Part shown: positions 11,469 to 22,927 of the stretch, in pieces
How the letters are laid out: each line of letters starts with the position of its first letter
Position numbering within the stretch: position 1 is the stretch's first letter
NCBI RefSeq assembly: GCF_027604915.1
Contig: NZ_JAJAQC010000010.1
Location: 62,001 to 126,000 of the forward strand
DNA length: 64,000 nucleotides
Direction of reading: 5' to 3'
Source of the DNA: Streptomonospora mangrovi
GTDB lineage: Bacteria > Actinomycetota > Actinomycetes > Streptosporangiales > Streptosporangiaceae
Translations under genes and position numbers: made by a program
The notes under the pieces: generated by a model
What the model was told of the DNA's origin: nothing
The model's input: the letters and a program-made list of their open reading frames with translations, nothing else
Databases searched by the model: none

Positions 11469-12395
11469 TCACCGGAACGCGGCCCGGTAGGCGGTGGGCG
11501 TGGTGCCCACCTGGCGGCCGAAGTGGTAGCGCAGCGTCTCCACGGTGCCGAACCCCGTGGTGCGCGCGATCCGCTCCACCGGCAGGCCGGTGGTCTCCAG
11601 CAGCTCCCGAGCGCGCTGCACCCGGCGGTCCAGCAGCCAGCGCAGCGGCGTCGTGCCCGTCTGCGCCCGGAACCGCCGCGACAGGTGGCGGGGGCTCAGG
11701 GCGGCGTGGGCGGCGATCTCGGCCACGGTCAGCGGCTCGGCCAGGTGGTCCTGCATCCAGCGCAGCGTGGCGCCCAGGTCGGCGGTGTCGTCGACCGGGT
11801 CGCGGTGCTCGATGAACTGCGCCTGGCCGCCGGGGCGCTGCGGGGGCATCACGATCAGCCGCCCGGTCTCGGCGGCGGCGGCCGCGCCCCGGTCGCGGCG
11901 CACGATGTGCAGGCACAGGTCCAGGCCCGAGGCCACCCCCGCCGAGGTCAGCACCTGGCCGTCGTCCACGAACAGCACCGAGGGGTCGACCTCCACCTCG
12001 GGGTAGGCCCGGGCCAGGTCGCCGGCCAGCAGCCAGTGGGTGGCGGCCGGACGGCCGTCGAGCAGGCCCGCCGCCGCCAGCACGAACGCCCCGGTGCAGA
12101 TCGAGGCCACCCGCGCCCCGCGCTCCACCGCCTCGCGCAGCAGCTCCAGCACCGCGCGCGGCGGAGGGCTCGCGGGGTCGCCCCCCGGCACGACCACGGT
12201 GTCGGCGCGGTGCGCGTCGTCCAGGCCGTAGGGCGCGGAGAGCCGGAACGTCTCGCGTCCGGCGGCGGTGGCGGCGATGTCGGAGTCGGCGCAGACCCGC
12301 ACCTCATAGCCCGGGGCGAACGAGAACACCTGGCACGGAATGGTCAGGTCGAAGCCCACGATCCCGTCGAAGGCGAGTACGGCGACCACGTGCAT
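11469..12395 (-). CDS. GlxA-family transcriptional regulator (DJ-1/PfpI + AraC)
   Basis: A 308-residue regulator. Residues 1-190 form a DJ-1/PfpI (glutamine-amidotransferase-like) domain with VVVPGG and the Cys elbow ASICTGAFVLAAAG. Residues 210-305 carry two AraC helix-turn-helix motifs (LTVAEIAAHAALSPRHLSRR and VERIARTTGFGTVETLRYHF). Domain order and length are standard for GlxA. It is divergent from a gene encoding a free-standing DJ-1/PfpI protein, with 110 bp between the starts, so it probably controls that neighbour and itself. The inducer is unknown. Confidence 0.85.
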   Translation of the reverse strand: MHVVAVLAFDGIVGFDLTIPCQVFSFAPGYEVRVCADSDIAATAAGRETFRLSAPYGLDDAHRADTVVVPGGDPASPPPRAVLELLREAVERGARVASICTGAFVLAAAGLLDGRPAATHWLLAGDLARAYPEVEVDPSVLFVDDGQVLTSAGVASGLDLCLHIVRRDRGAAAAAETGRLIVMPPQRPGGQAQFIEHRDPVDDTADLGATLRWMQDHLAEPLTVAEIAAHAALSPRHLSRRFRAQTGTTPLRWLLDRRVQRARELLETTGLPVERIARTTGFGTVETLRYHFGRQVGTTPTAYRAAFR

Positions 12396-12505
12396 GGCCG
12401 AATCCTACGCATGGCGGTCCATCAGGCCGCTGTCCCCCCGGATCCGGCGTCGCGATACTCGGCGTGTCCGCAAGCACCCGATCGTGCTGTCTTCAGGAGG
12501 CCGCG

Positions 12506-13141
12506 ATGACCCTTCACGTGCAGGCCGTGCTCTACGACGGGGTGGAGGACCAGGACCTCCTCGGCCCGCTCGGGGCGCTGGAGGTCATGGAGGACGTCCA
12601 GACCACGTTCGTCGCCCTCGACGCGCCCGCCACCGTGACCACGTCCTTCGGCCTGGAGGTCCGGGTTCGGGCCGCGCTGGATGCGGCGCGGGCCGACGTC
12701 CTGGTGGTCCCCGGAGGCGGAGTCGGCGAGGGCTCGGCCGTGGACCGCCAGATCCGCGCCGGAGCGCTCCCAGCGGCCCTGGCGGCGGCGGCGCGCCCCG
12801 GCCTGGTGATGGCGGGGGTGTGCACCGGCACCCTGCTGCTGTCGGCGGCGGGCATCACGGCCGGACGCCCGTGCACCACCCACCACGCCGCCACGGAGGC
12901 GTTGCGCGCCGAGGGCGCCGAGGTGGTCCCCGGCCGCGTCGTGGACGACGGCGACCTGGTCACCTGCGGCGGCGTGACCTCGGGGATCGACCTCGGCCTG
13001 TGGCTGGTGGAGCGCCGGTACGGCCCCCAGGCGGCTCTCCTGGCCGAACAGGTCCTCGAACACGAGCGCCGGGGCACCGTGTGGCGCAGCGGGGCGGCCG
13101 GTGCCGCCGGGACCGGGAAGGGGGCGGCGGCTCTCACCTGA
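12506..13141 (+). CDS. DJ-1/PfpI family protein, isonitrile-hydratase-like
   Basis: A 211-residue single-domain DJ-1/PfpI protein. It has VLVVPGGG and the nucleophile elbow AGVCTGTLLLSAAG, and the Thr-His pair THHAATEALR seen in isonitrile hydratase (InhA)-like members. The ATG at 12506 follows CAGGAGG. Possible activities are isonitrile hydration or another glyoxalase or amidase-type reaction; the sequence alone does not decide. Divergent pairing with a GlxA regulator is the usual context. Confidence 0.78.
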   Translation: MTLHVQAVLYDGVEDQDLLGPLGALEVMEDVQTTFVALDAPATVTTSFGLEVRVRAALDAARADVLVVPGGGVGEGSAVDRQIRAGALPAALAAAARPGLVMAGVCTGTLLLSAAGITAGRPCTTHHAATEALRAEGAEVVPGRVVDDGDLVTCGGVTSGIDLGLWLVERRYGPQAALLAEQVLEHERRGTVWRSGAAGAAGTGKGAAALT

Positions 13142-13407
13142 GCCCGCCTGAGCGCCGGTCACCACAGCGGGTCGGTGAGGTCACGACGGACGGCGCCGGC
13201 CCCCGGGTGGCGCGGGTGCGCGGTCATCGGGACGCCGGGCGGGGCTGGTGCGCGCGCCGGGGGCGGCGGAGGGTGGCCTGGGGCGGGCGGTCACCGGTCC
13301 GCAGGCCGCCCGGGTGGTCGAGGCGGCGACGGGCGGCGACGGGCGGCGGGGCCTCGGGCGGGCGGTACCGGCTCGGCACGGCGGCGGCCCGTGAGACGAC
13401 AGCGGTG
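13142..13407. other. convergent intergenic region, no gene seen
   Basis: This 266-bp stretch is rich in GGCGGGC-type runs between the DJ-1 gene and the last ADP-ribosylglycohydrolase gene. It presumably contains the terminator of the 9-kb operon, but I did not find a clean long stem. Confidence 0.35.
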
Positions 13408-14778
13408 TCACGCGGCGGGGGCGGTGCGCAGGGCCAGGGTGCGCGCGGCGAGTTCGGCGAAGGTGATGCCGTCGAAGCCGGTGAGGCTGCTGGCGATCCG
13501 GCCGCGCAGCGGGGTGGTCCAGTACTCCGGCAGGGCCGAGGCACCCCTCAGCGCCCCGGCGGCAGATCCGACCGTGGCACCCACCGAATCGGTGTCCCAA
13601 CCGGCCGACACGGCCTTGGTGATGGAGTCGGCGAAGTCGCCTCCCCCGTGCACGAGCGCGGCGGCGACCACGGCGGCGTTGTTGACCGCGTGCACCCAGT
13701 GCAGGTGGCCGTGCGCCGCGTACAGCCCGTCCACGACCTCCTCGAAGTCGTCGGCGCCCGCCGCGAGCACCATCGCGTCGCGGACGGCCTCGGCCAGCCG
13801 CGACCTCGGCGGCACCACGCGCAGCGCCGTCTCCAGCGCGGCGGCGGGGGAGTCCGCCACCGGGGCCGTCGCGGCGAGCGCGGCGGCGAACATCGCGCCG
13901 TAGACCCCGTTGGCGGTGTGGCTGACCACGGCGTCGCGGTGCGCCATCATCGCGGCGGTGCCCGGATCGCCCGGGTTGGTCCACCCGAACACGTCGGCGC
14001 GGATCAGTGCGCCGATCCACTCCCGGAAGGGGTTGCGCACCCGCGCCGTCCGCGGCGGCACCACCCCCGTGAGCAGGTTGCGCACGGCCACCCGCTCGGC
14101 GGTGAAGATCCGGCCGGGCGGGAGTTCGTCCAGCCACATCTGGGCGACGTCCTCGCTGGTGAACCGGGGGCCGAAGCGCTCAAGCAGGGCCAGCCCCAGC
14201 ATCGGGAAGTTGAGGTCGTCGTCCTCGGGGGTGCCGTCGAGGGTTTCGGCCAGGCTCGTCGGGGCGCTGCGGCGGTTCCACGGCCAGCGCGCCGCGACGT
14301 CGTCGGGCAGGCCCTTGGCCGTGAACCAGCCCCGCACCGGCCAGTTGCCGGTCGTCTCGGCGATCTCGCGGATGCCCGCGCGCGGGATCTTCTCCACCGG
14401 CTTGCCGAGCACGCACCCGGCGGCCCGGCCCGTCCAGGCGCCCAGCACCCGGTCGGCGAGGTCGGCGCCCGGCGCGGCCACCGGACCCACCGGCCACTCC
14501 GGGCAGGCCGCGATGATGTCGGGGAGGTCGGTGGGCTCGTCCCCGGCCAGGGGGGAGGGCAGGGCCGAAAGCTCGTCCAGCAGATCCTCGGCCAGCGCGC
14601 GCACCTCGGGCGCGGCCGGTTCGGGCGAGGCGCCCGCCAGGGGCGGCGCGTCGTGCCCGCCGGCGGCGTACCAGCGCTTCCGCACCCGGGCGACGGCGTC
14701 GGGGTCGCGGCCGTCCTGGTCGGCCTGGCGCAGTTCGTGCCCGACGAGGTCTTCGGGATGGATCCAGGTCACGCGCAT
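13408..14778 (-). CDS. ADP-ribosylglycohydrolase family protein, long form (ARH no. 1)
   Basis: A 456-residue protein. After an N-terminal helical region of about 105 residues comes the ARH (DraG-like) all-alpha domain: RVLGAWTGRAAGCVLGKPVEK replaces the usual GDALG; the first metal motif is EDDDLN (D186-D188); the second is GWDTDSVGAT (D395, D397). These are the di-magnesium ligand positions of the family, so hydrolysis of an N- or O-ribosyl bond is plausible. The variant motifs place it in a different subgroup from the other three ARH genes. It is the most distal gene of the sugar-transport operon, separated from ARH no. 2 by 430 bp, so it may also have its own promoter. Confidence 0.85.
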   Translation of the reverse strand: MRVTWIHPEDLVGHELRQADQDGRDPDAVARVRKRWYAAGGHDAPPLAGASPEPAAPEVRALAEDLLDELSALPSPLAGDEPTDLPDIIAACPEWPVGPVAAPGADLADRVLGAWTGRAAGCVLGKPVEKIPRAGIREIAETTGNWPVRGWFTAKGLPDDVAARWPWNRRSAPTSLAETLDGTPEDDDLNFPMLGLALLERFGPRFTSEDVAQMWLDELPPGRIFTAERVAVRNLLTGVVPPRTARVRNPFREWIGALIRADVFGWTNPGDPGTAAMMAHRDAVVSHTANGVYGAMFAAALAATAPVADSPAAALETALRVVPPRSRLAEAVRDAMVLAAGADDFEEVVDGLYAAHGHLHWVHAVNNAAVVAAALVHGGGDFADSITKAVSAGWDTDSVGATVGSAAGALRGASALPEYWTTPLRGRIASSLTGFDGITFAELAARTLALRTAPAA

Positions 14779-15208
14779 GTGGCGGGTTCCTCCAGTGGTC
14801 GTCGTGTCGTCCCAACCGCTCCAATGGCGCGGCCCCGGCGGTCCGTCGCCGGTCGGCCCGCCGAGAGGCCGCGCGCCGACGGCCGCTGCCCGGCCAACGC
14901 GCGGCGCGTCCCCGCGCGTGCCCGGCGCGGGGTTTCCCCGCGACCGAGGACGGGGGTTCGCACCGTCCCAATCGCCGCCGCGCCGGGTTCCACCGCGAGC
15001 CGATGCCCGTGGCGGACGCGGCCGGCGCGACGGGCGGCCTGTCGGTGCGCGGGCGGTCGTGCGATGGTCCCCGGGCTGCTCCGCGCCCGCCGCCCGGCCG
15101 AGTCGGCGTCCGGCCGGTGCGCCCGCACCGGCCGCCCACCGGCGTTCACCGCGCCCGGCCTCGTGCGCGCGCCTCGGCCCGCTCTCCGCACCGGCATCCG
15201 CGTCCCCC
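14779..15208. other. gap inside the ARH operon
   Basis: 430 bp without recognisable coding sequence between two ARH genes, in an operon where the other genes overlap or nearly touch. It is very Arg/Ala/Pro-like in every frame. A promoter for ARH no. 1 or a remnant of a lost gene are both possible; neither can be shown. Confidence 0.4.
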
Positions 15209-16357
15209 TCAGGCGGCCGGCTGTTCCAGCTTTGCCAGGGCGGCGTCGGCGGCCTCTCGGCGGCGGCGGTCGGCGGTTCGGATGCGGAGGGCGACCTCCG
15301 CCAGGTCCAGGCCGGGGGTTTCGATGTCGGTGCGGCTGGCTTCGGCCACCTGGATGCGCCACTCCCGGGGGACCGCGTCGCGGCCGCCGAGTGCTCCGGC
15401 GAGGGCGCCGCCCATGCTGGCGATGGAGTCGGCGTCGCGCCCGTAGTTCACCCCGCCCAGCACGGTGTCGCGGTAGTCGCCCCCCGCGATCAGCAGGAAC
15501 GCCAGCGCCAGCGGCAACTCCTCGATGGAGTGCACCCGGCTGGGCCGACGAGCGCCCAGCCCCTGGTCGCGGTAGGTGTCGGCGACCGTGTCGAACGGCG
15601 CCACGGCCTCCCGCAGCGCCGCCGCCGACCCCCGCCACCCGCTGATGCCGCGCGCCCGCTCGCACACCGCCTCGATCGCCGCGCGCGTGCCGTCCTTGGC
15701 CAGCCCCAGCGCCGCCGCGACCACCGCCTCGGCGTCGGCACCCGGCCCCATGGCCGCCGCCACCGCCGCCGCGAACACCCCGGCGGCCTCCCGGCCGTAG
15801 CTGGACTGGTGCGCCCCGGCCAGGTCGATCGCCTCGGTGTAGGCGCCCTCCGGGTCGCCGGCGTTGACCACGCCCACCGGCGCCATGTACATCGCCGCGC
15901 CGCAGTTGACGATGTTGCCGGTGCCGGCCTCGCGCGGGTCCACGTGGCCGTAGTGCAGCCGCGCCACCAGCCACTTCTCGGCGAGGAAGACCCGTTGCAG
16001 CAGCAGCGCCTCCTCCTCCAGTTCGGGCACCCACCGCCGCTCACCCATCATCTCCGGCACCAGCAGGTCGGCGGCGGCGTAGGCGTCGAGGTGCCGTTCG
16101 GCCTTGGTGTAGACCCGGATCAGCGCCTGGGTCATCAAGGTGTCGTCGGTGATGTGGCCGTCGCCCTTGTGGTAGGGGGCGATGGGCCGCGCGTTGCGCC
16201 AGTCGGTGTTGAAGGGGCCGACGACTCCCTCCACGTAGCCGCCGTAGCGCTGCTGGATCTGCTCGACGGTCCAGCCCTCGGTCGCGCCGCCGAGCGCGTC
16301 ACCCACGGCGGCCCCGGCAATCGCGCCGACGGCCTTGTCCTGGAGGCGGGTCAGCAT
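15209..16357 (-). CDS. ADP-ribosylglycohydrolase family protein (ARH no. 2)
   Basis: A 382-residue ARH-fold hydrolase with all canonical motifs: AGAAVGDALGGATEGW at the N-terminus, HITDDTLMT (T70-D71-D72-T73) and NYGRDADSIASMGGALAGA (D308, D310). This is the full set of magnesium ligands, so an active enzyme is expected. The ATG at 16357 has AAGGAG ahead and starts 11 bp after the stop of ARH no. 3; the longer upstream frame is rejected. The family removes ADP-ribose from proteins or small molecules. The transporter context here suggests instead a ribosyl-type nutrient. Confidence 0.85.
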   Translation of the reverse strand: MLTRLQDKAVGAIAGAAVGDALGGATEGWTVEQIQQRYGGYVEGVVGPFNTDWRNARPIAPYHKGDGHITDDTLMTQALIRVYTKAERHLDAYAAADLLVPEMMGERRWVPELEEEALLLQRVFLAEKWLVARLHYGHVDPREAGTGNIVNCGAAMYMAPVGVVNAGDPEGAYTEAIDLAGAHQSSYGREAAGVFAAAVAAAMGPGADAEAVVAAALGLAKDGTRAAIEAVCERARGISGWRGSAAALREAVAPFDTVADTYRDQGLGARRPSRVHSIEELPLALAFLLIAGGDYRDTVLGGVNYGRDADSIASMGGALAGALGGRDAVPREWRIQVAEASRTDIETPGLDLAEVALRIRTADRRRREAADAALAKLEQPAA

Positions 16358-16368
16358 GGATGGCTCCT

Positions 16369-17529
16369 TCACGGGTTGCGGCGCGCTCCCGCGCCACGGT
16401 CGTCGTTGTCGCTCCGGTCGCCCCGGTCGCTTCGGGAGGAGGCGGCGAGCGCGTCGGCCACGCCGACGAGGTCGGTCCCGGCCAGTTCCGGCAGGCAGCA
16501 CCCGGCCAGCGGCGCCGCGCGCGCCCGCCACGCGGGCGCGATGGCCAGGTGGCCGCCCAGCGCCCCGGCGAGCGCGCCGGTGAGCGCGGGCGCGGAGTCG
16601 GCCAGCGGTGCCAGGCACGCCGCCGCGCTCACCGCCGGACCGAGCGCGCCCCCGGCGGCGCCGGTCAGTGCGAAGGCTGCGCCCAGCGTGGCCTGCGCCG
16701 CCGTGCCGTAGGAGTAGACGTGGTCGCAGCAGACCGCTTCGAGGGCCGGAACGAGGTCGAAGGGCTGGGCGGGCGCGGCACGCTCCACTTCGGCCAGCGC
16801 CTCACCGACGACCGCGTTGATCGCGCTGCCCGCCGGAAGGTGCGCCGTTCCGGCCGCCAGCGCCTCGGCCGGCCCCGCCCCGCCCACGGCCGCCGCGACG
16901 GCGGCGGCCATCGCGCGGGCGGCGCTGACGCCGTCGCCGGAGTTGGTGACCTCGGCGTCGGCCTGGGCGTCGTCGGCGGCGCCCTCGGGGTCGCCGGGGC
17001 GGGCCGCGCCGAACGCGACCGCGCGCACCGCCGCCGCGTCGTCGAAGAAGTGCGGGTTGTCGTGCCCGGTGTGCGGCGGGCGGGCGCCCCGCGCGAGGTT
17101 GTCCAGCGCCGTGCGCACCGAGATCCGCGCGCGCACGTCGGCGCGGCCGGCGAGGGCGGCGAACGCCTCGGCGCGGTCGGTGCCGATGCCCAGCGCCGTC
17201 CACGCCAGCCACTCGGCGTCGTCGGAGGGACCCATGGCCAGCGGCGCCACCGGCTGGTTCAGCGCGAAGGGCACCGGCAGCGTCGTGACGCGGTGCTCCT
17301 CGGCGAACAGGTCGAGTTCCCGGCCCAGGCGCCGGGTCCAGGGCGCCAGCAGGGCGGACCGGTGCCGCCCGGCCGGCCAGCCCACGGCGTCGCCGATCGC
17401 CAGTCCGGCGAACGCCCCGCGCACCCGGTCGGCGACCGAGCCGGGTGCGTCCGCGCCGGGTCCGCCGGTCCCGGTGGCGGCCTTCGGTTGTGTTCCGCCG
17501 CCGTGTGCCGGGTTGTCCCCCGTTGTCAC
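16369..17529 (-). CDS. ADP-ribosylglycohydrolase family protein with degenerate metal site (ARH no. 3)
   Basis: A 386-residue ARH-fold protein. GDAVG is present near residue 46. The first metal motif is altered to PSDDAEW (S102-D103-D104-A105 in place of TDDT), and in place of GRDAD the aligned stretch reads APLADSAPALTG, which keeps only one Asp (D311). Two or more magnesium contacts are therefore changed. It may be inactive, or may have another specificity or a scaffold role with its paralogues. The GTG start at 17529 has GGGGAGGA upstream. The extra C-terminal tail is Asp/Arg-rich. It follows ARH no. 4 after 102 bp. Confidence 0.8.
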   Translation of the reverse strand: MTTGDNPAHGGGTQPKAATGTGGPGADAPGSVADRVRGAFAGLAIGDAVGWPAGRHRSALLAPWTRRLGRELDLFAEEHRVTTLPVPFALNQPVAPLAMGPSDDAEWLAWTALGIGTDRAEAFAALAGRADVRARISVRTALDNLARGARPPHTGHDNPHFFDDAAAVRAVAFGAARPGDPEGAADDAQADAEVTNSGDGVSAARAMAAAVAAAVGGAGPAEALAAGTAHLPAGSAINAVVGEALAEVERAAPAQPFDLVPALEAVCCDHVYSYGTAAQATLGAAFALTGAAGGALGPAVSAAACLAPLADSAPALTGALAGALGGHLAIAPAWRARAAPLAGCCLPELAGTDLVGVADALAASSRSDRGDRSDNDDRGAGARRNP

Positions 17530-17631
17530 TGCCGATTCCTCCCCGCGTCGGGTGGGCCGCCGATCGGCGGTGCCCGGTCGCCTCCGCTGTTCCCGCTGGT
17601 ACGGCCGGCCCCTCGGGCGGCCGCACCAGCG

Positions 17632-18711
17632 CTATCCGCCGGGCGTCCGCCGCCCGGCGCCGCTTCGCTCTGCCTCGGCCGCGCGGTCGGCCGCCCCGGC
17701 CGCCACCAGGAGGTCGGCGACCTCGGTGACGTGGCGGCCCGCGACCGACGGCAGGCAACTGCCCGTCACCGGACCGATCGCCGCCGCCCACCGGCGCGGG
17801 ATCCCCGAAGCGCCGCGCCCCGCCCCCGCCAGGGCGCCGGCGATCGCCGCCGTGGTGTCGGCGTCGCGACCCATGTTGGCCGCCGTCACCACCGCCTCCT
17901 CCACCTCGCCGCCAGCGGCGAGGTAGGCGCCGAACGCCAGCGCGACCGCCTCCGGCGCCAGGTCGGTCCACGGGTAGTGGGCGGGCACCACGGCCGCGTG
18001 CAGGGCCGCGCCCAGCGCGGCGGTGTCGGGCGCCTCGTCGGCGGCGCGCACCGCGTGGGCCAGGGCGCGCCCGGTCCAGGAGTCGGCCGGCACCTGCTCC
18101 CGGGCCGCCGCGGCGACCTCGCGCGGTGCCGCGCCGGCCATCGCCGCCGCCACGCCCGCCGCCACCGCGCGGCCGCCCAGCAGCCCCTCGCCCGCGTGGC
18201 TGACCTGGCCCTCCAGCTCGATCAGCCGCGCGGCCTCGGCCGGGTCGCCCGCCGCGAACACCCCGTAGGGCGCCGCGCGCATCGCCAGCCCGTCGGACCA
18301 GCCGTGCAGGTGCCGCCGCCCGGTGTCGGGCGGCGCCAGCCCCCGGCGCAGCGCCTGGACGGTGCCCAGTTCGGAGAACCCCGCGCCGCGCATGGGCCCC
18401 TCGATGGTCAGCACGTCGCGCTCGTAGGCCGCCACCACGTGCTCGGGCCGCAGCCCGCGCCCGTGCTCGGCCAGCAGCAGCCCGATGAACACCGAGTACT
18501 CGGTGTCGTCGGTGCCCGCCGCCGTGCCGCGCTCGTCCACGGCCAACTCGGTCAGCCGCCCCCAGCGCTCCGCGATGGCCGCGGGCGTCATGTTCTCCGC
18601 CGGGCGGCCCAGCGCGTCGCCGCAGGCCAGGCCCAGCAGCGCGCCGCGCGCCCGGTCCCGCCAGGCCTCCGGCGCCGCGCCCGGGGCGCGGCCCGTGTCC
18701 TCACCCCTCAT
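17632..18711 (-). CDS. ADP-ribosylglycohydrolase family protein (ARH no. 4)
   Basis: A 359-residue ARH-fold hydrolase with intact motifs: LLGLACGDALGRPAEN, AGTDDTEYS (T67-D68-D69-T70) and NMGRDADTTAAIAGALAGA (D283, D285). Its start overlaps the end of the solute-binding protein gene by 11 bp, so translation of the two is probably coupled. This ties ARH function to sugar uptake more firmly than simple proximity. Substrate unknown; nucleoside- or ADP-ribose-like compounds are the natural guess from the family. Confidence 0.85.
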   Translation of the reverse strand: MRGEDTGRAPGAAPEAWRDRARGALLGLACGDALGRPAENMTPAAIAERWGRLTELAVDERGTAAGTDDTEYSVFIGLLLAEHGRGLRPEHVVAAYERDVLTIEGPMRGAGFSELGTVQALRRGLAPPDTGRRHLHGWSDGLAMRAAPYGVFAAGDPAEAARLIELEGQVSHAGEGLLGGRAVAAGVAAAMAGAAPREVAAAAREQVPADSWTGRALAHAVRAADEAPDTAALGAALHAAVVPAHYPWTDLAPEAVALAFGAYLAAGGEVEEAVVTAANMGRDADTTAAIAGALAGAGRGASGIPRRWAAAIGPVTGSCLPSVAGRHVTEVADLLVAAGAADRAAEAERSGAGRRTPGG

Positions 18712-20011
18712 CGGCGTACCTCGCCATCACCGCGTCGCCCTCCTCCTCCATGCGCCGCGCCAGCTCGTCCAGGCTGATCCGGTCGCCGAAGTACTCCTGC
18801 AACAGCGGCTCCGAAACCCGGTTCTTGAACTCGTCGAACCCGGGGACCTGGAGGTAGGGCGCCGAGCGGAGGTTGCCCGCCGCGTGCACGGCGACGTCCC
18901 ACTCGTTCTCGTTGGTCGTCAGCTCCGGCGAGGCCAGCGCCTCCTGGCTGGTGGGGGTCAGCCAGTCGCCCAGCGCGAGGTCCACCTGGTTGTCGGGCTC
19001 GGCCATGAACGCGACGAACGCGGCCGCGTCCGCCTCGTGCGGGCTCCCGGCGGCCACCGACAGCGTCTGGGAGGTGGCGCCCTGGTCGGGGACGTCGCCC
19101 ACCAGCGGCGGCAGCATCACCCAGTCGAACCCGTCGGGCGCCTGCTCCACGACCTGCTGGCGGGTGTAGACCCCGCCCTGGACCATGGCGTACTGCCCGG
19201 CGAAGAACGCGGGCAGCGGGTCGGAGCCGCTCATGCCCACCGCCTGCGGGTCGGCCGTGCGGTCGGTGTAGAGCTGGCGGTGGATGCGCTCCAGCACCTC
19301 GCGCTCGCGCGGCCCGACCTCCACGGTGACCGTCCCGTCCTCGGCGACGCGGAAGAACTCCCCGCCGAAGTTCAGCGCCAGGTTGAGCACCCGGTTGGTC
19401 GGGCTGCTCAGCGGCCAGGCCACCGCGTGCCGCTCGCCGGGCACGGTCAGCTCGCGGGCGGCCGCCTCGAACTCGTCCCAGGTCCAGGGCTCCTCGACCG
19501 TGGGGATCCGCACCCCCGACTCCCGCAGGATGTCGGCGTTGGCGATCAGCACCTGCGGCTCCTGGAGCAGCGGCACGCCCACCACGCGGCCGTCGATGGT
19601 GACGGTGTCCCACGCGGCGTCGCCGATGTCGGCGCGCACGTCCGCGGGCAGGTCGTCGCCCAGGTCGGCCAGGTAGTTGCGGTACTCGAAGCTGGTCAGC
19701 GTGGGCGACTCGTTGTGGATGATGTCGGGCGGGTCGCCGCCCTCGAACGCCGTGACCAGTTGGTCGTTGACGTTGTCCCAGCTCCCCTGCACGTACTCCA
19801 CCGGCGCGTCGGGGTGCTCCCGGTTCCACTCCTGGACCAGCCGCCGGTTGGCCTCGATCGACTGCGTCTGCCAGGCCAGGCTGAGGTAGCGCATCGGCTC
19901 CTCGCCCGGGTCGCCCTGGGCGCAGCCGGTGACCAGCACCGCCGCGGCCAGTCCCGCCGCCGCCAGGGCCGTGCCCCGCCGCCGGCCTCGCCCGCCCCTG
20001 CCCACGGTCAT
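18701..20011 (-). CDS. ABC transporter solute-binding lipoprotein (sugar type)
   Basis: A 436-residue extracellular binding protein of the sugar (family 1, MalE-like) type. The signal ends in the lipobox LVTGC with the lipidated Cys at about residue 30. Typical elements are the substrate-cleft regions YVQGSWDNVNDQ and PPDIIHNE, the EEPWTWDEFEAAARELT block and LPAFFAGQYAMVQGG. The ATG at 20011 overlaps the stop of the upstream permease gene (ATGA), so the much longer open frame is rejected. It delivers an unidentified saccharide to the two permeases encoded upstream. Confidence 0.9.
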   Translation of the reverse strand: MTVGRGGRGRRRGTALAAAGLAAAVLVTGCAQGDPGEEPMRYLSLAWQTQSIEANRRLVQEWNREHPDAPVEYVQGSWDNVNDQLVTAFEGGDPPDIIHNESPTLTSFEYRNYLADLGDDLPADVRADIGDAAWDTVTIDGRVVGVPLLQEPQVLIANADILRESGVRIPTVEEPWTWDEFEAAARELTVPGERHAVAWPLSSPTNRVLNLALNFGGEFFRVAEDGTVTVEVGPREREVLERIHRQLYTDRTADPQAVGMSGSDPLPAFFAGQYAMVQGGVYTRQQVVEQAPDGFDWVMLPPLVGDVPDQGATSQTLSVAAGSPHEADAAAFVAFMAEPDNQVDLALGDWLTPTSQEALASPELTTNENEWDVAVHAAGNLRSAPYLQVPGFDEFKNRVSEPLLQEYFGDRISLDELARRMEEEGDAVMARYADEG

Positions 20012-20862
20012 CCCTTCACCGCCCCGTCGACCAGCCCGCCGCGGAAGCGGCGCTGGATGAACGCGAAGAACACCAGGCTGGGCACCGCCGCCATCAGCGA
20101 CGCCGCAGCCAGCGGCCCCAGCCGCGCCACGCCCTCGGGCCCGGTGAACGCCACCAGCACCAGCGGCAGCGTCTGCACCCCGGGGTCCTTCAGCAGGATC
20201 AGCGCGAACAGGAACTCGTTCCAGGAGGAGACGAACCCGAACATCAGCGCGGCGGCCACGCCCGGCGCCGCCAGCGGCGCCACCACCGACACCAGCGTGC
20301 GCCAGCGGCCCGCGCCGTCGACCGCCGCGGCCTCCTCCAGCACCCGGGGGATGCCGCGCAGGTAGCCCCGCAGCATCCACAGCACGAACGGCAGGCACCA
20401 GGTGGCGTGCACCAGCACCAGCCCCGCCAGGGAGTCCACCAGCCCGAACCGCCGCAGGATCATGAACAGCGCGATGATCACCAGGATGAACGGGAACACC
20501 TGGCTGACCAGCACCCAACCCATCACCACCCGGTTGACCGCCGACTTGTAGCGCGCCAGCACGTAGGCGGCCGGCAGCGCCAGCAGCACCGTCAGCACCG
20601 CCGAGCACAGCGCCACGCCCAGGCTGCGCCGCGCCGCGCCCACCAGGTCCTGCTCGCCGAACGCGGCGGCGAAGTTGGCCAGGGTGGGCTCCAGCGGGAT
20701 CCACGTGGGGTCCAGCAGCGCCATCTCCTGCGGCGTCTTCAGCGCCGTGGACGCCAGCCACACCAGCGGGAACGCCAGGAAGACCAGGTAGCACACCAGC
20801 GCCGCGTACTGGCCGGTGCGGGCCGCCGCCCGGCGCGCCCGGGCCGCGCTCACCGCAGCCAT
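20008..20862 (-). CDS. sugar ABC transporter permease, MalG type
   Basis: A 284-residue inner-membrane permease with six helices and the cytoplasmic EAA loop (EEAAAVDGAGRWRTLVSVV), which docks the ATPase. The ATG at 20862 has GGGAGG at good distance and is preferred to the GTG at 20898. The gene ends by a 4-bp overlap with the binding-protein gene. No ATPase gene is present in the operon. In actinomycetes such CUT1 systems commonly share an MsiK-type ATPase encoded elsewhere. Confidence 0.9.
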   Translation of the reverse strand: MAAVSAARARRAAARTGQYAALVCYLVFLAFPLVWLASTALKTPQEMALLDPTWIPLEPTLANFAAAFGEQDLVGAARRSLGVALCSAVLTVLLALPAAYVLARYKSAVNRVVMGWVLVSQVFPFILVIIALFMILRRFGLVDSLAGLVLVHATWCLPFVLWMLRGYLRGIPRVLEEAAAVDGAGRWRTLVSVVAPLAAPGVAAALMFGFVSSWNEFLFALILLKDPGVQTLPLVLVAFTGPEGVARLGPLAAASLMAAVPSLVFFAFIQRRFRGGLVDGAVKG

Positions 20863-20911
20863 CGCCGGCCTCCCGTCCCTCGCCGCAGCGCGGCGCACGC
20901 GCGGGGTCGCC

Positions 20912-21850
20912 TCATGCCTCGGCCTCCTTCAACTGGCGGCGCAGGTAGAACCCGAGCACCGCGAGGACCACGATCACGATCGCCACGCCCATCGCCGAGG
21001 CGTAGCCGAAGAACCCGTAGCGGAACGCCTCCTCGTAGGCGTAGAGCATGGGCAGCCGCGTCATGCCGCCCGGCCCGCCCTGCGTCAGCACGTACACCAG
21101 CGCGAACTCGTTCATGTTCCACACGAAGTTCAGCGACATGATCGCCACGGTCACGGAGCGCAGTTGCGGCAGGGTGACGCCGGTGAAGCGGCGCCAGGGC
21201 CCGGCGCCGTCGACCCGCGCGGCCTCGCCGAGGTCGCGGGACACGTTCTGCAACCCGGCCAGCAGCACGATGGTGGTCTGCGGCATCCCCGTCCACACGC
21301 CCACGACCACCACGGCGGGCAGCGCCCAGCCGAAGTCGTTCAGCCAGTCGATGTTCTGCGAGATCAGGCCGAGGTCGGTGAGCGCGGCGTTGAGCACCCC
21401 GGCGTCGGGGTGGTACACCAGCCGCCACATCAGCCCGATGATCACCGGCGGCATCGCCCACGGGAACAGCGCCAGCGTGCGGGCCAGCCAGCGCAGCCGC
21501 AGGTTCTGGTTGAGCAGCAGCGCCAGGCCCATGCCCGCCGCGTACTGGAGCAGCGTCACCGTGACCGCCCACACCAGGCCGATCCGGAACGACGACCAGA
21601 ACTGCACGTCGTCGAGCAGGTGCCCGAAGTTCTCCAGGAACACCAACGATGTGTCGACGTCGCGGCCGGCGCGGGCGTCGGTGAACGCCAGGAACATCCC
21701 GTAGACCAGCGGCGCGATGCTGAACAGCACCACCGGCATCAGGGCCGGCAGCAGCAGCGCGTAGGCCGACCGGTCGGGCCGCCGGGCGCGCGGACGGGGC
21801 CGGGGCGGCGCCGCTTCGGTGGGGGGTGGGGACGCCGAGGTGAGCGTCAT
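20912..21850 (-). CDS. sugar ABC transporter permease, MalF type
   Basis: A 312-residue permease with a Pro/Arg-rich cytoplasmic N-terminus and six helices. The EAA loop reads LGEAARVDGAGPWRRFTGVT. The ATG at 21850 overlaps the TGA of lacI (ATGA), which shows that regulator and transporter are cotranscribed. It partners the MalG-type permease encoded 49 bp downstream. Confidence 0.9.
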   Translation of the reverse strand: MTLTSASPPPTEAAPPRPRPRARRPDRSAYALLLPALMPVVLFSIAPLVYGMFLAFTDARAGRDVDTSLVFLENFGHLLDDVQFWSSFRIGLVWAVTVTLLQYAAGMGLALLLNQNLRLRWLARTLALFPWAMPPVIIGLMWRLVYHPDAGVLNAALTDLGLISQNIDWLNDFGWALPAVVVVGVWTGMPQTTIVLLAGLQNVSRDLGEAARVDGAGPWRRFTGVTLPQLRSVTVAIMSLNFVWNMNEFALVYVLTQGGPGGMTRLPMLYAYEEAFRYGFFGYASAMGVAIVIVVLAVLGFYLRRQLKEAEA

Positions 21851-22881
21851 TGGTCGCCTCCTGTGGTCGAGGCGCGCACGACCAGGCGCGGCGCCACGGT
21901 GACGGTCCGCGCGGAGCCCGCGGCCGGGGCCGCGGGGGGAGCGCCGCGCAGGCGGTCGAGCAGCAGTCCGGCGGCGCGCCGGCCGCGTTCGGCCGAGCCC
22001 AGGCAGACGCTGGTCAGGGTGGGCCACGACACCGCCGCCAGTTCGGTGTCGTCCATGCCGACCACGGCGACGTCGTCGGGCACGCGCAGCCCGGCGGCGC
22101 GCAGGGTGTCCAGCGCGCCCAGGGCGATCAGGTCGTTGGCGCACAGCAGCGCGTCGGGCGGGCCGTGGGGGTGGGCGAGCAGGCGGCGGGCGCCCTCGGC
22201 GCCGGTCTCGCGGCGGAACCCGCCCACGTGCACCAGGCCCTCGTCCACGGGGCGGCCGGCCTCGGCCATGCCGTCGCGGAAGGCGGCGTCGCGGCGTTCG
22301 CCGGGCACCGTGTCCAGCGGGCCGTTGACGAACCCGATGCGGCGGCGCCCGATGTCGAGCAGGTGGCGCAGGGCCAGGCGGACGCCGGTGCGGGAGTCGG
22401 CGCGCACGTTGTCCACGGGGGTGCCGGGCGGCACGGAGCCGATGACGACCACGGGGGCGGCGGCCTGGGCGAGGGCGCCGAGCAGGTCGGGAGTGACCCG
22501 GATGGGGCTGATGACCAGCCCGTCGGCGTGCCGGCGGCCCAGCCCGCGCAGCACCTCGATCTCCTCGCCGGGGTCGCCGCCGGTGGAGTGCACGACCAGG
22601 CGGAAGCCGTCGGCGCGCAGGACCGGCTGGATCTCGCGCAGCATGGCCAGGTAGACGGGGTTGCCGATGTCCTCCACGGCGAACGCCACCTGGTCGGTGC
22701 GGTTGGACTTCAGCGAGCGCGCGACCGCGTTGGGGACGTAGCCCAGGCGCTCGGCCTCGGCCAGCACCCGGCGGCGGGTGGAGTCGCGCACCGGCTGGCC
22801 GTTGAAGACCCGCGACACCGAGGCGATGGAGACACCGGCGGCCTCGGCGATCGTGGTGATCGTCGGGACGGGCTTTGCCAT
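21847..22881 (-). CDS. LacI-family transcriptional repressor
   Basis: A 344-residue regulator. The N-terminal HTH (TITTIAEAAGVSIASVSRVF) and hinge helix (PNAVARSLKS) are standard; residues 65-330 form the periplasmic-binding-protein-like sensor with VVGMDDTELAAVSWPTLTSV. The ATG at 22881 is preceded by GGAGGG. As first gene of the operon it represses itself and the transporter/ARH genes through the palindrome at 22910-22927. Effector unknown, presumably the transported saccharide or a breakdown product. Confidence 0.9.
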   Translation of the reverse strand: MAKPVPTITTIAEAAGVSIASVSRVFNGQPVRDSTRRRVLAEAERLGYVPNAVARSLKSNRTDQVAFAVEDIGNPVYLAMLREIQPVLRADGFRLVVHSTGGDPGEEIEVLRGLGRRHADGLVISPIRVTPDLLGALAQAAAPVVVIGSVPPGTPVDNVRADSRTGVRLALRHLLDIGRRRIGFVNGPLDTVPGERRDAAFRDGMAEAGRPVDEGLVHVGGFRRETGAEGARRLLAHPHGPPDALLCANDLIALGALDTLRAAGLRVPDDVAVVGMDDTELAAVSWPTLTSVCLGSAERGRRAAGLLLDRLRGAPPAAPAAGSARTVTVAPRLVVRASTTGGDQ

Positions 22882-22909
22882 GCGCCCTCCCTGAGCTGCG
22901 CTGATGAGA

Positions 22910-22927
22910 ACTGTAAACGTTTACAGT
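22910..22927 (-). promoter_or_regulatory. LacI autoregulatory operator
   Basis: A perfect 18-bp palindrome, ACTGTAAACGTTTACAGT, centred about 38 bp before the lacI start. The central CG with flanking A/T tracts is typical for LacI-family sites. It differs from the AAGCGCTT-core operators at 5027 and 56678, so a different repressor probably serves those. Confidence 0.75.

Follow-up and report, generated by a model that had tools for sequence, protein, structure and literature searches.

In actinomycete CUT1 oligosaccharide operons, genes for a LacI regulator, a solute-binding protein (SBP), and MalF and MalG permeases are accompanied by a glycosidase gene, and the ATP-binding cassette (ABC) importer that they encode draws on a shared ATPase, MsiK. 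Genes of the ADP-ribosylglycohydrolase (ARH)/DraG type are taken as evidence of ADP-ribosylation metabolism. According to the parts of two papers cited here (PMC9411070, PMC5087735), Streptomyces coelicolor seems rich in hydrolases and poor in transferases, and its DraG/ARH homologues SCO2028 to SCO2031 (SCO2028 to SCO2030 in the latter paper) are filed as uncharacterized ADP-ribosylation hydrolases. SCO2028 and SCO2030 had no detectable activity on one ADP-ribosylated base, U-alpha-ADPr, in the portion cited here of a 2026 study (PMC13036486). In the Escherichia coli yegTUV operon, to which the sections of PMC10819704 cited here assign no clear function and which one study links to glycogen and ADP-glucose, yegU, encoding a predicted ADP-ribosylglycohydrolase, stands beside genes for a sugar kinase and a nucleoside symporter, both of them putative. 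Here we describe an eight-gene operon in a 64,000-nucleotide stretch of the Streptomonospora mangrovi genome (contig NZ_JAJAQC010000010.1, positions 62,001 to 126,000; hereafter the window), in which genes for a CUT1 importer are followed by four ARH-fold genes. Judged from its sequence, the operon probably imports a ribose-containing compound and degrades it with four ARH-like enzymes. A preliminary description of the window had observed the operon correctly but understated it: it forms one end of a conserved and probably catabolic module.

The eight genes lie on the minus strand between positions 13408 and 22881 and are transcribed in the order lacI, malF, malG, SBP, ARH4, ARH3, ARH2, ARH1 (Table 1). 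Their domains score far above the Pfam cut-offs, and the gene order given in the preliminary description is confirmed. Overlapping codons had been described throughout the first four genes; LacI/MalF and MalG/SBP do overlap, by 4 bp each, whereas MalF and MalG are separated by a 13-bp gap. The 11-bp overlap of SBP and ARH4 was measured at the same value, and gaps of 102, 11, and 430 bp precede ARH3, ARH2, and ARH1. With an SBP of the SBP_bac_1 class and MalF/MalG-type permeases, the transporter is a CUT1-type sugar ABC importer. The Pfam matches of the SBP are limited to SBP_bac_1 and SBP_bac_8, and among the best 60 of 73 matches of its profile to the PDB, those with a specific name are binders of sugars, polyols, or sugar derivatives or maltose-binding-protein fusions, with Lmo0181 first and the arabino-oligosaccharide binder 6rjy among the closer ones. 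A Pfam scan and the gene calls of the window revealed no ATPase or kinase gene in the cluster; this earlier statement holds for the window but not for relatives, which carry a kinase in the operon and, in alphaproteobacterial versions, their own UgpC ATPase. Three UgpC-like ATPase genes are found elsewhere in the S. mangrovi genome (E 1e-60 or better), and the best of them (L164; G and L numbers are our labels for genomes and loci), with ABC_tran and OB_MalK domains, is 59% identical to Ensifer UgpC, with no permease or SBP gene called within the short flanks seen. We infer that a UgpC-like ATPase from elsewhere serves this importer.

All four ARHs exceed the gathering score of Pfam family PF03747 (87.4 to 180.6 against 26.2 bits). 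The metal motifs attributed to them earlier stand for three: TDD(T) and DxD(T/S) are both kept in ARH4 and ARH2, and ARH1 has the variant EDDD with DTDS, whereas in ARH3 DD is intact but the first Asp of DxD(T/S) is replaced, as it is in 11 of 11 aligned members. Invariant residues include T67-D68-D69-T70, D283, D285, and T286 in ARH4 (10 sequences) and D186-D188, D395, D397, and S398 in ARH1 (14 sequences), and ARH2 is the most conserved of the four, with a mean column identity of 73% (12 sequences). A tree of 80 rows placed ARH1 and ARH2 in groups of their own, each supported at 100/100, while ARH3 and ARH4 separated once two proteins named ARH4 by best hit (L050:8959 and L052:10379) were moved to ARH3. 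ARH3 is the probable sister clade of ARH4, although their join is weak (89/50) and the tree program warns of long branches. The Ensifer plasmid protein ARHa (L144) was placed with ARH2, and 700-residue proteins from Ensifer, Deinococcus, and Enterobacter with ARH1. Since the four ARHs of the window share only 27 to 34% identity (matches over 200 residues) and fall into separate clades, they are old paralogues, and a recent tandem duplication of one ARH was rejected; that the paralogues share the steps of a pathway is plausible. The only further PF03747 gene of the genome, whose 742-residue product combines a VWA domain at the N-terminal end with an ARH domain at the C-terminal end, lies on another contig (G000:C15, L054:9512-11740, minus strand), so four ARHs in one cluster are no background property of this genome.

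The preliminary description had suggested searching actinomycetes for a conserved lacI-malFG-SBP-ARH neighborhood, and such a neighborhood exists. We sought PF03747 in 100 genomes, S. mangrovi included, and fetched 20 stretches: the surroundings of the fifth ARH of S. mangrovi and 19 stretches belonging to 18 relatives. Genes were called by a simple script and named by their best BLAST hit to proteins of the window, L038, or L039; missing genes may be missed calls, and neighbor identities (GntR, DctM, cyclase, MmgE) come from Pfam in one or two loci and from likeness in the others. The eight-gene order recurs in 11 relatives (the contig of L047 ends within ARH1) and hence in at least 12 of the 100 genomes, and L049 has another arrangement, ARH4-ARH3 with ARH1. 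A scan of genome contigs with an ARH1 profile yielded at least 593 pattern matches and 381 confirmed relatives, the best 80 of which were read as the named loci; these were chosen for ARH1, and well over half are from Streptomyces. ARH2 adjoins ARH1 in 80/80, and the other genes are ARH4 (58 loci), ARH3 (55), a kinase (52), a CoA-transferase (70), a lyase (67), SBP (29), LacI (27), and a glycosidase-like protein (14). Where the right flank was visible, a ribokinase and/or CoA-transferase gene follows ARH2/ARH1 in 75 of 79 loci. Transporter-bearing loci come from Nocardiopsis trehalosi, Marinitenerispora, Nonomuraea, Actinoallomurus, Micromonospora, Asanoa, Cellulomonas, Promicromonospora, Microbacterium, and others. 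The common Streptomyces type, ARH4-(ARH3)-ARH2-ARH1-(kinase)-transferase-lyase, has no transporter and sits between gltB and lgt-trpA-trpB, flanking genes that were checked in Streptomyces sp. CCM_MD2014 only. The order in that strain is gltB, an unnamed gene, ARH4-3-2-1, CoA-transferase, lyase, lgt, an unnamed gene, trpA, trpB, and trpC, and the part of PMC5036795 cited here gives trpX as SCO2038 in trpCXBA. By this synteny, worked out from the CCM_MD2014 gene order and the locus number of trpX, SCO2028 to SCO2031 should therefore be ARH4, ARH3, ARH2, and ARH1, and SCO2032 and SCO2033 the transferase and lyase.

Downstream of the ARHs, the relatives differ. A class-III CoA-transferase gene continues the operon in 6 of the 11 same-order relatives, with a ribokinase-type kinase gene before it in 5 and an HpcH/CitE-type lyase gene after it in 5. 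The operon lacks this kinase-transferase-lyase tail in the window's own group (G000, G003, G012, G047, G060), and each of the five genomes has a CoA-transferase-lyase pair elsewhere. Next to the pair lies a GntR-type gene in divergent orientation; four of the contigs extend further, and on these a TRAP DctM-type permease is present as well (Pfam: DctM in L056 and L058, GntR in L058). The unlinked transferase and lyase of S. mangrovi are 70% and 57% identical to the L039 copies, and in four congeners without ARH2 the best transferase identity is only 34 to 41%. Among the 100 genomes, 16 have ARH2 (E up to 1e-70) and 26 have the transferase (E up to 1e-120); the latter is present in 16 of 16 genomes with ARH2 versus 10 of 84 without it (Fisher 4e-12, a value that ignores relatedness). 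In the 16 ARH2 genomes it lies beside the ARHs in 8, in a separate transferase-lyase pair in 6 (S. mangrovi, G003, G008, G012, G047, and G060), and in another setting in 2. Three of eight module kinases pass the cut-off (299.65) of the ribokinase model TIGR02152 (L043 314.5, L046 308.5, L040 308.0), as does the unlinked ribokinase of S. mangrovi (305.8). Since a close ribokinase was found in 11/11 genomes searched, with or without the ARH operon, this copy is a general one.

A second recurring cluster with a transferase homologue (L061:8079-12335, L152, L153, L158, L160) often holds a CitE lyase, a PF04199 cyclase, and MmgE/PrpD, and is accompanied by various importers (Pfam in L061, likeness in the others). 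The neighbors of transferase homologues gave no answer as to the identity of the acid, as the settings differ: TRAP DctM with GntR in some, and cyclase, MmgE/PrpD, and other importers elsewhere.

Loci without ARH4 and ARH3 encode a protein of 629 to 717 residues (in L101, at 12303-14192) after ARH1 or the kinase, in which Pfam sees only a C-terminal FGE-sulfatase domain. In its AlphaFold model (pLDDT 67.8, pTM 0.63), a barrel-like part precedes a beta domain, and the best Foldseek matches are alpha-L-fucosidases (GH29), then alpha-galactosidase and amylase-type enzymes (presumably GH36 and GH13), with a best E of 5e-9. Among 65 complete named loci, in which both flanks could be seen, 53 have ARH4 and/or ARH3 without the glycosidase-like protein and 12 have that protein but neither ARH4 nor ARH3. 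Exceptions lie outside these 65: L098, whose left end is cut, has ARH4 with the glycosidase-like protein, and L038 has ARH4 and ARH3 with it. Read most simply, ARH4/ARH3 and the barrel protein would catalyze one kind of reaction, glycosidic cleavage.

The module also extends beyond actinomycetes. An ARH2 relative was present in 20 records of alphaproteobacterial plasmids; we read 11 of these, and all 11 have LacI-MalF-MalG-SBP-ARH2 in the same order together with their own UgpC ATPase. The 700-residue ARH1 is found on 10 of these plasmids, the transferase on 7, the lyase on 6, and the kinase on 1, and several module genes are in pieces on one plasmid. Identity to the actinomycete counterparts is 47% for the Ensifer transferase, 32% for the Ensifer lyase, and 39% for the Agrobacterium kinase. 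By annotation, Deinococcus aetherius has LacI-MalFG-SBP-hypothetical-ARH-ribokinase-ARH, Mycolicibacterium arabiense LacI-ARH-SBP-MalFG-ribokinase-UgpC, and Enterobacter hormaechei LacI-ARH-SBP.

The gene content, conservation, co-occurrence, and mutual exclusion that we observed are most economically modeled as the uptake and cytoplasmic cleavage of a ribosyl (or other furanosyl) conjugate, since a LacI regulator, a sugar importer, an enzyme family that cuts ribosyl bonds, a ribokinase-type kinase, and a pair that could activate and split an acid come together. On sequence grounds, we consider it somewhat probable that this is an inducible glycoside-catabolism operon with ARH-fold furanosidases, from which ribose would go to ribokinase and an acid to the transferase and lyase. 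The imported compound would release LacI, and a MalK/MsiK-type ATPase from elsewhere would power uptake. Cleavage of the ribosyl conjugate in the cytoplasm would fall to ARH2, ARH1, and ARH4 as Mg-dependent furanosidases, and the altered ARH3 would be a partner or variant. Ribokinase would then phosphorylate the freed ribose. The recurrent CoA-transferase and CitE-type lyase point to an acid part in the substrate, and sugar and acid may come from one compound; the class-III CoA-transferase may activate the acid aglycone and the CitE-type lyase may cleave it. In S. mangrovi, the unlinked ribokinase and the transferase-lyase pair would supply these steps. The earlier proposal that the operon imports and degrades a ribosylated nutrient is plausible, given that many actinomycetes, 1 of the 11 alphaproteobacterial plasmids, and Deinococcus have the gene for a ribokinase-type kinase next to those for ARHs. 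More tentatively, and with less confidence than in the operon's general role, we propose a widespread, undescribed pathway of actinomycetes and rhizobia, and partly of Deinococcus, in which ARH-fold furanosidases would act on a ribosyl conjugate of a hydroxy-dicarboxylic acid (served by ribokinase, CoA-transferase, and CitE-type lyase), SCO2028 to SCO2031 would be its enzymes and unrelated to ADP-ribosylation, and ARH4/ARH3 would be interchangeable with a new TIM-barrel glycosidase. Among the substrate types that we take to be candidates (bacillithiol, methanopterin, hydroxymethylglutarate [HMG], and apiose), the data single out none.

On the other hand, several observations weigh against the catabolism of a ribosyl conjugate. 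Five of the eight module kinases miss TIGR02152 (L149 290.8, L145 279.4, L039 272.9 with its N terminus apparently cut by the gene call, the L053 fusion 261.3, and L147 189.6), and none reaches a second ribokinase model, NF008353 (cut-off 341); a pass count of three in eight weakens the ribose step. The lyase and transferase miss all equivalog cut-offs: RipC (375) is matched at 173.9 by the L039 lyase, 95.4 by the Ensifer lyase, and 153.8 by the unlinked lyase of S. mangrovi, and succinate-glutarate CoA-transferase (750) at 237.7 by the L039 and 273.3 by the Ensifer transferase. The transferase sits with a cyclase-like and an MmgE/PrpD-like gene in two ARH2 genomes (G062, G063), its homologues occur in 10 ARH2-free genomes, several with cyclase and MmgE/PrpD, and in one genome the kinase-CoA-transferase-lyase trio stands where no ARH gene was called (L150:6171-9132, G035), as either a remnant or a free-standing unit. 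L050 and L052 have ARH4-ARH3 with LacI, an SBP-like gene, and MalF/MalG without ARH2/ARH1, and 40 of the 65 complete loci, all Streptomyces by title, lack an adjoining SBP. The model of the glycosidase-like protein is mediocre, with query TM values of 0.27 to 0.38 among the matches listed. Within S. mangrovi itself, a genome-wide scan found no LacI operator before the unlinked transferase or ribokinase, and ARH1 may have a separate transcript, given the 430-bp gap before it. Consensus scans found no promoter- or terminator-like site in this gap, such scans being weak in a high-G+C actinomycete, and ARH2 and ARH1 overlap by 4 bp or almost touch in relatives beyond the window's own group.

We weighed three other readings. 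The ARHs could be genuine ADP-ribosyl hydrolases, acting on protein, nucleic acid, or an antibiotic, whose genes only happen to lie in one operon with those of a sugar transporter. The four PF03747 matches, the solved relatives of all four proteins (DraG, MJ1187, ARH3, and Tri1-type entries and similar), and the filing of SCO2028 to SCO2031 agree with this, but the DraG and Tri1 cut-offs are missed widely: the best ARH score is 69.8 bits against 337.05 for TIGR02662 and 45.2 bits against 490 for NF041672, and the ARH3 of the window matches neither at E 0.001. That such genes are linked in several phyla to those for a sugar importer, a ribokinase-type kinase, and a transferase-lyase pair also argues against it, as does the result for SCO2028 and SCO2030, obtained on a single substrate, and we regard this explanation as unlikely. 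Just as unlikely, in our view, is salvage of nucleosides or ADP-ribose by an ABC-driven counterpart of yegTUV, the substrates named in the preliminary description. The ribokinase-type kinase in relatives' operons and the yegU precedent would suit such a pathway; the sugar class of the SBP, its sugar-binding solved relatives, and the companion CoA-transferase and CitE-type lyase disfavor it. We know of no role for that enzyme pair in base or ribose degradation, and no nucleosidase, phosphorylase, or deaminase was recognized among the recurring genes, no model search having been aimed at these enzymes.

A furanoside pathway for a sugar other than ribose (arabinose, apiose, fructose, or another furanose), with a kinase for that sugar or for another purpose, earns slightly less credence still. 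Of the 79 named loci whose right flank was visible, 27 yielded no kinase, and only one alphaproteobacterial plasmid in 11 has one; the kinases below the ribokinase cut-off and the position of 6rjy among the relatives of the SBP point the same way. Against this stand the three operon kinases that pass the equivalog cut-off, and in the eight kinases scanned no other sugar-kinase model came near the ribokinase score. We retain the uptake and cleavage of a ribosyl conjugate as our favored reading.

Regulation by the encoded LacI protein appears local. The protein has a helix-turn-helix and a ligand domain, reaches no NCBIfam cut-off, and is predicted to bind a perfect palindrome with a central CG, CTGTAAACGTTTACAG, about 30 bp upstream of its gene. 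This is the single exact copy in the 6.36-Mb genome, with no site at 1 or 2 mismatches and one other at 3; as a control, the reversed pattern with up to 3 mismatches gave 3 sites per strand. Sites of the GTAAACGTTTAC type precede lacI in 10/10 same-order relatives tested (L036 to L044 and L047), mostly doubled and spaced 24 to 35 bp apart, and GGAAACGTTTCC takes their place in several loci of the ARH4-less group. L051 and the five plasmid loci tested showed no such site before lacI. No LacI operator shared with the unlinked CoA-transferase and ribokinase was found, and the idea of the same operator before ARH4 in loci without a local LacI was rejected, since only 2 of 43 have it.

Table 1. Features of the operon, with positions in the window
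Feature	Position	Strand	Evidence
Perfect palindromic LacI-type operator, CTGTAAACGTTTACAG	22911..22926	.	sequence
LacI-family regulator, first gene of the operon	21847..22881	-	PF00356 41.8 bits, PF13377 114.8 bits
MalF-type CUT1 permease	20912..21850	-	PF00528 92.3 bits
MalG-type CUT1 permease, GTG start (ATG at 20862 possible)	20008..20898	-	PF00528 73.4 bits
Lipoprotein-like SBP, CUT1 class (SBP_bac_1)	18701..20011	-	PF01547 127.4 bits; lipobox-like LVTGC
ARH4, TDDT and DADTT motifs	17632..18711	-	PF03747 180.6 bits
ARH3	16369..17529	-	PF03747 87.4 bits
ARH2, TDDT and DADS motifs	15209..16357	-	PF03747 160.7 bits
ARH2/ARH1 gap, 430 bp, 82% G+C	14779..15208	-	
ARH1, EDDD and DTDS motifs, N-terminal extension of ~110 residues	13408..14778	-	PF03747 165.7 bits, domain from residue 113

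The operon's upstream neighbor is a gene for a small AA10-type lytic polysaccharide mono-oxygenase (PF03067; 23506-24030, minus strand), and a look-alike occupies the same place in the sister genome L036. Downstream of ARH1 lie divergent genes for DJ-1/PfpI proteins (11469-12395, minus strand, and 12506-13141, plus strand), one with an AraC-type helix-turn-helix, in the spot held by the kinase, CoA-transferase, and lyase in other lineages. A Gfo/Idh/MocA oxidoreductase gene and a DUF6807 gene diverge beside the operon in G028 and Nocardiopsis trehalosi (L038:743-2847, L044:11599-13616, L064). Genes for probably secreted esterases adjoin the module in L111:14228-16378 and L088:16936-19308 (PF00756 in both), with a similar one in L115:14262-16358, hinting at an esterified extracellular substrate.

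If the operon does degrade an imported ribose-containing compound with ARH-like enzymes, as is probable, some labels that read ARH/DraG genes as ADP-ribosylation metabolism may be wrong. The conserved association with genes for sugar import, for a ribokinase-type kinase, and for a pair that would cleave an acid offers a direct, testable alternative for whole ARH subfamilies. It could account for the apparent wealth of hydrolases and scarcity of transferases in S. coelicolor, and one more enzyme fold would join the known furanosidases. Under the more tentative pathway proposed above, half of the eight listed S. coelicolor DraG/ARH homologues, namely SCO2028 to SCO2031, would be unrelated to ADP-ribosylation. 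The substrate would also be one that keeps several paralogues in many soil genomes.

Compared with the ADP-ribosylglycohydrolase superfamily (PF03747; DraG, ARH1/ARH3, Tri1), the ARHs of the window share the fold family and, in ARH4, ARH2, and the variant ARH1, the aspartate metal motifs, but differ in their sugar-importer operon, in the kinase and CoA-transferase/lyase of relatives, and in the loss of a metal Asp in ARH3. S. coelicolor SCO2028 to SCO2031 represent the same four paralogues by synteny, in a CCM_MD2014-type layout without adjoining LacI or transporter. The likeness to E. coli yegTUV drawn in the preliminary description is loose: an ARH homologue by a transporter and a sugar kinase is common to both, but, in the sections of PMC10819704 cited here, YegT is a predicted nucleoside:H+ symporter of the major facilitator superfamily and yegTUV has the GntR-type regulator GgaR and one ARH, whereas the window has a CUT1 ABC importer in place of a symporter-type transporter, LacI, and four ARHs. 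Itaconate/citramalate degradation (RipC/Ccl) and class-III CoA-transferases are related through the companion enzymes: the lyase is similar to RipC (173.9 bits), and the transferase is similar to the CaiB family. Both stay below equivalog cut-offs, and no MaoC-type hydratase was recognized among the recurring genes, no search having been aimed at it. No description of this operon type turned up among the papers listed by full-text searches, whose coverage leaves out most subscription journals. With actinomycete CUT1 oligosaccharide operons, the locus shares a LacI with an adjoining operator, a CUT1 importer, and the lack of its own ATPase, with UgpC/MalK-type genes elsewhere. It differs in having no classical glycoside hydrolase, and what is new is a CUT1 glycoside operon variant in which ARH-fold proteins stand in place of the glycosidases.

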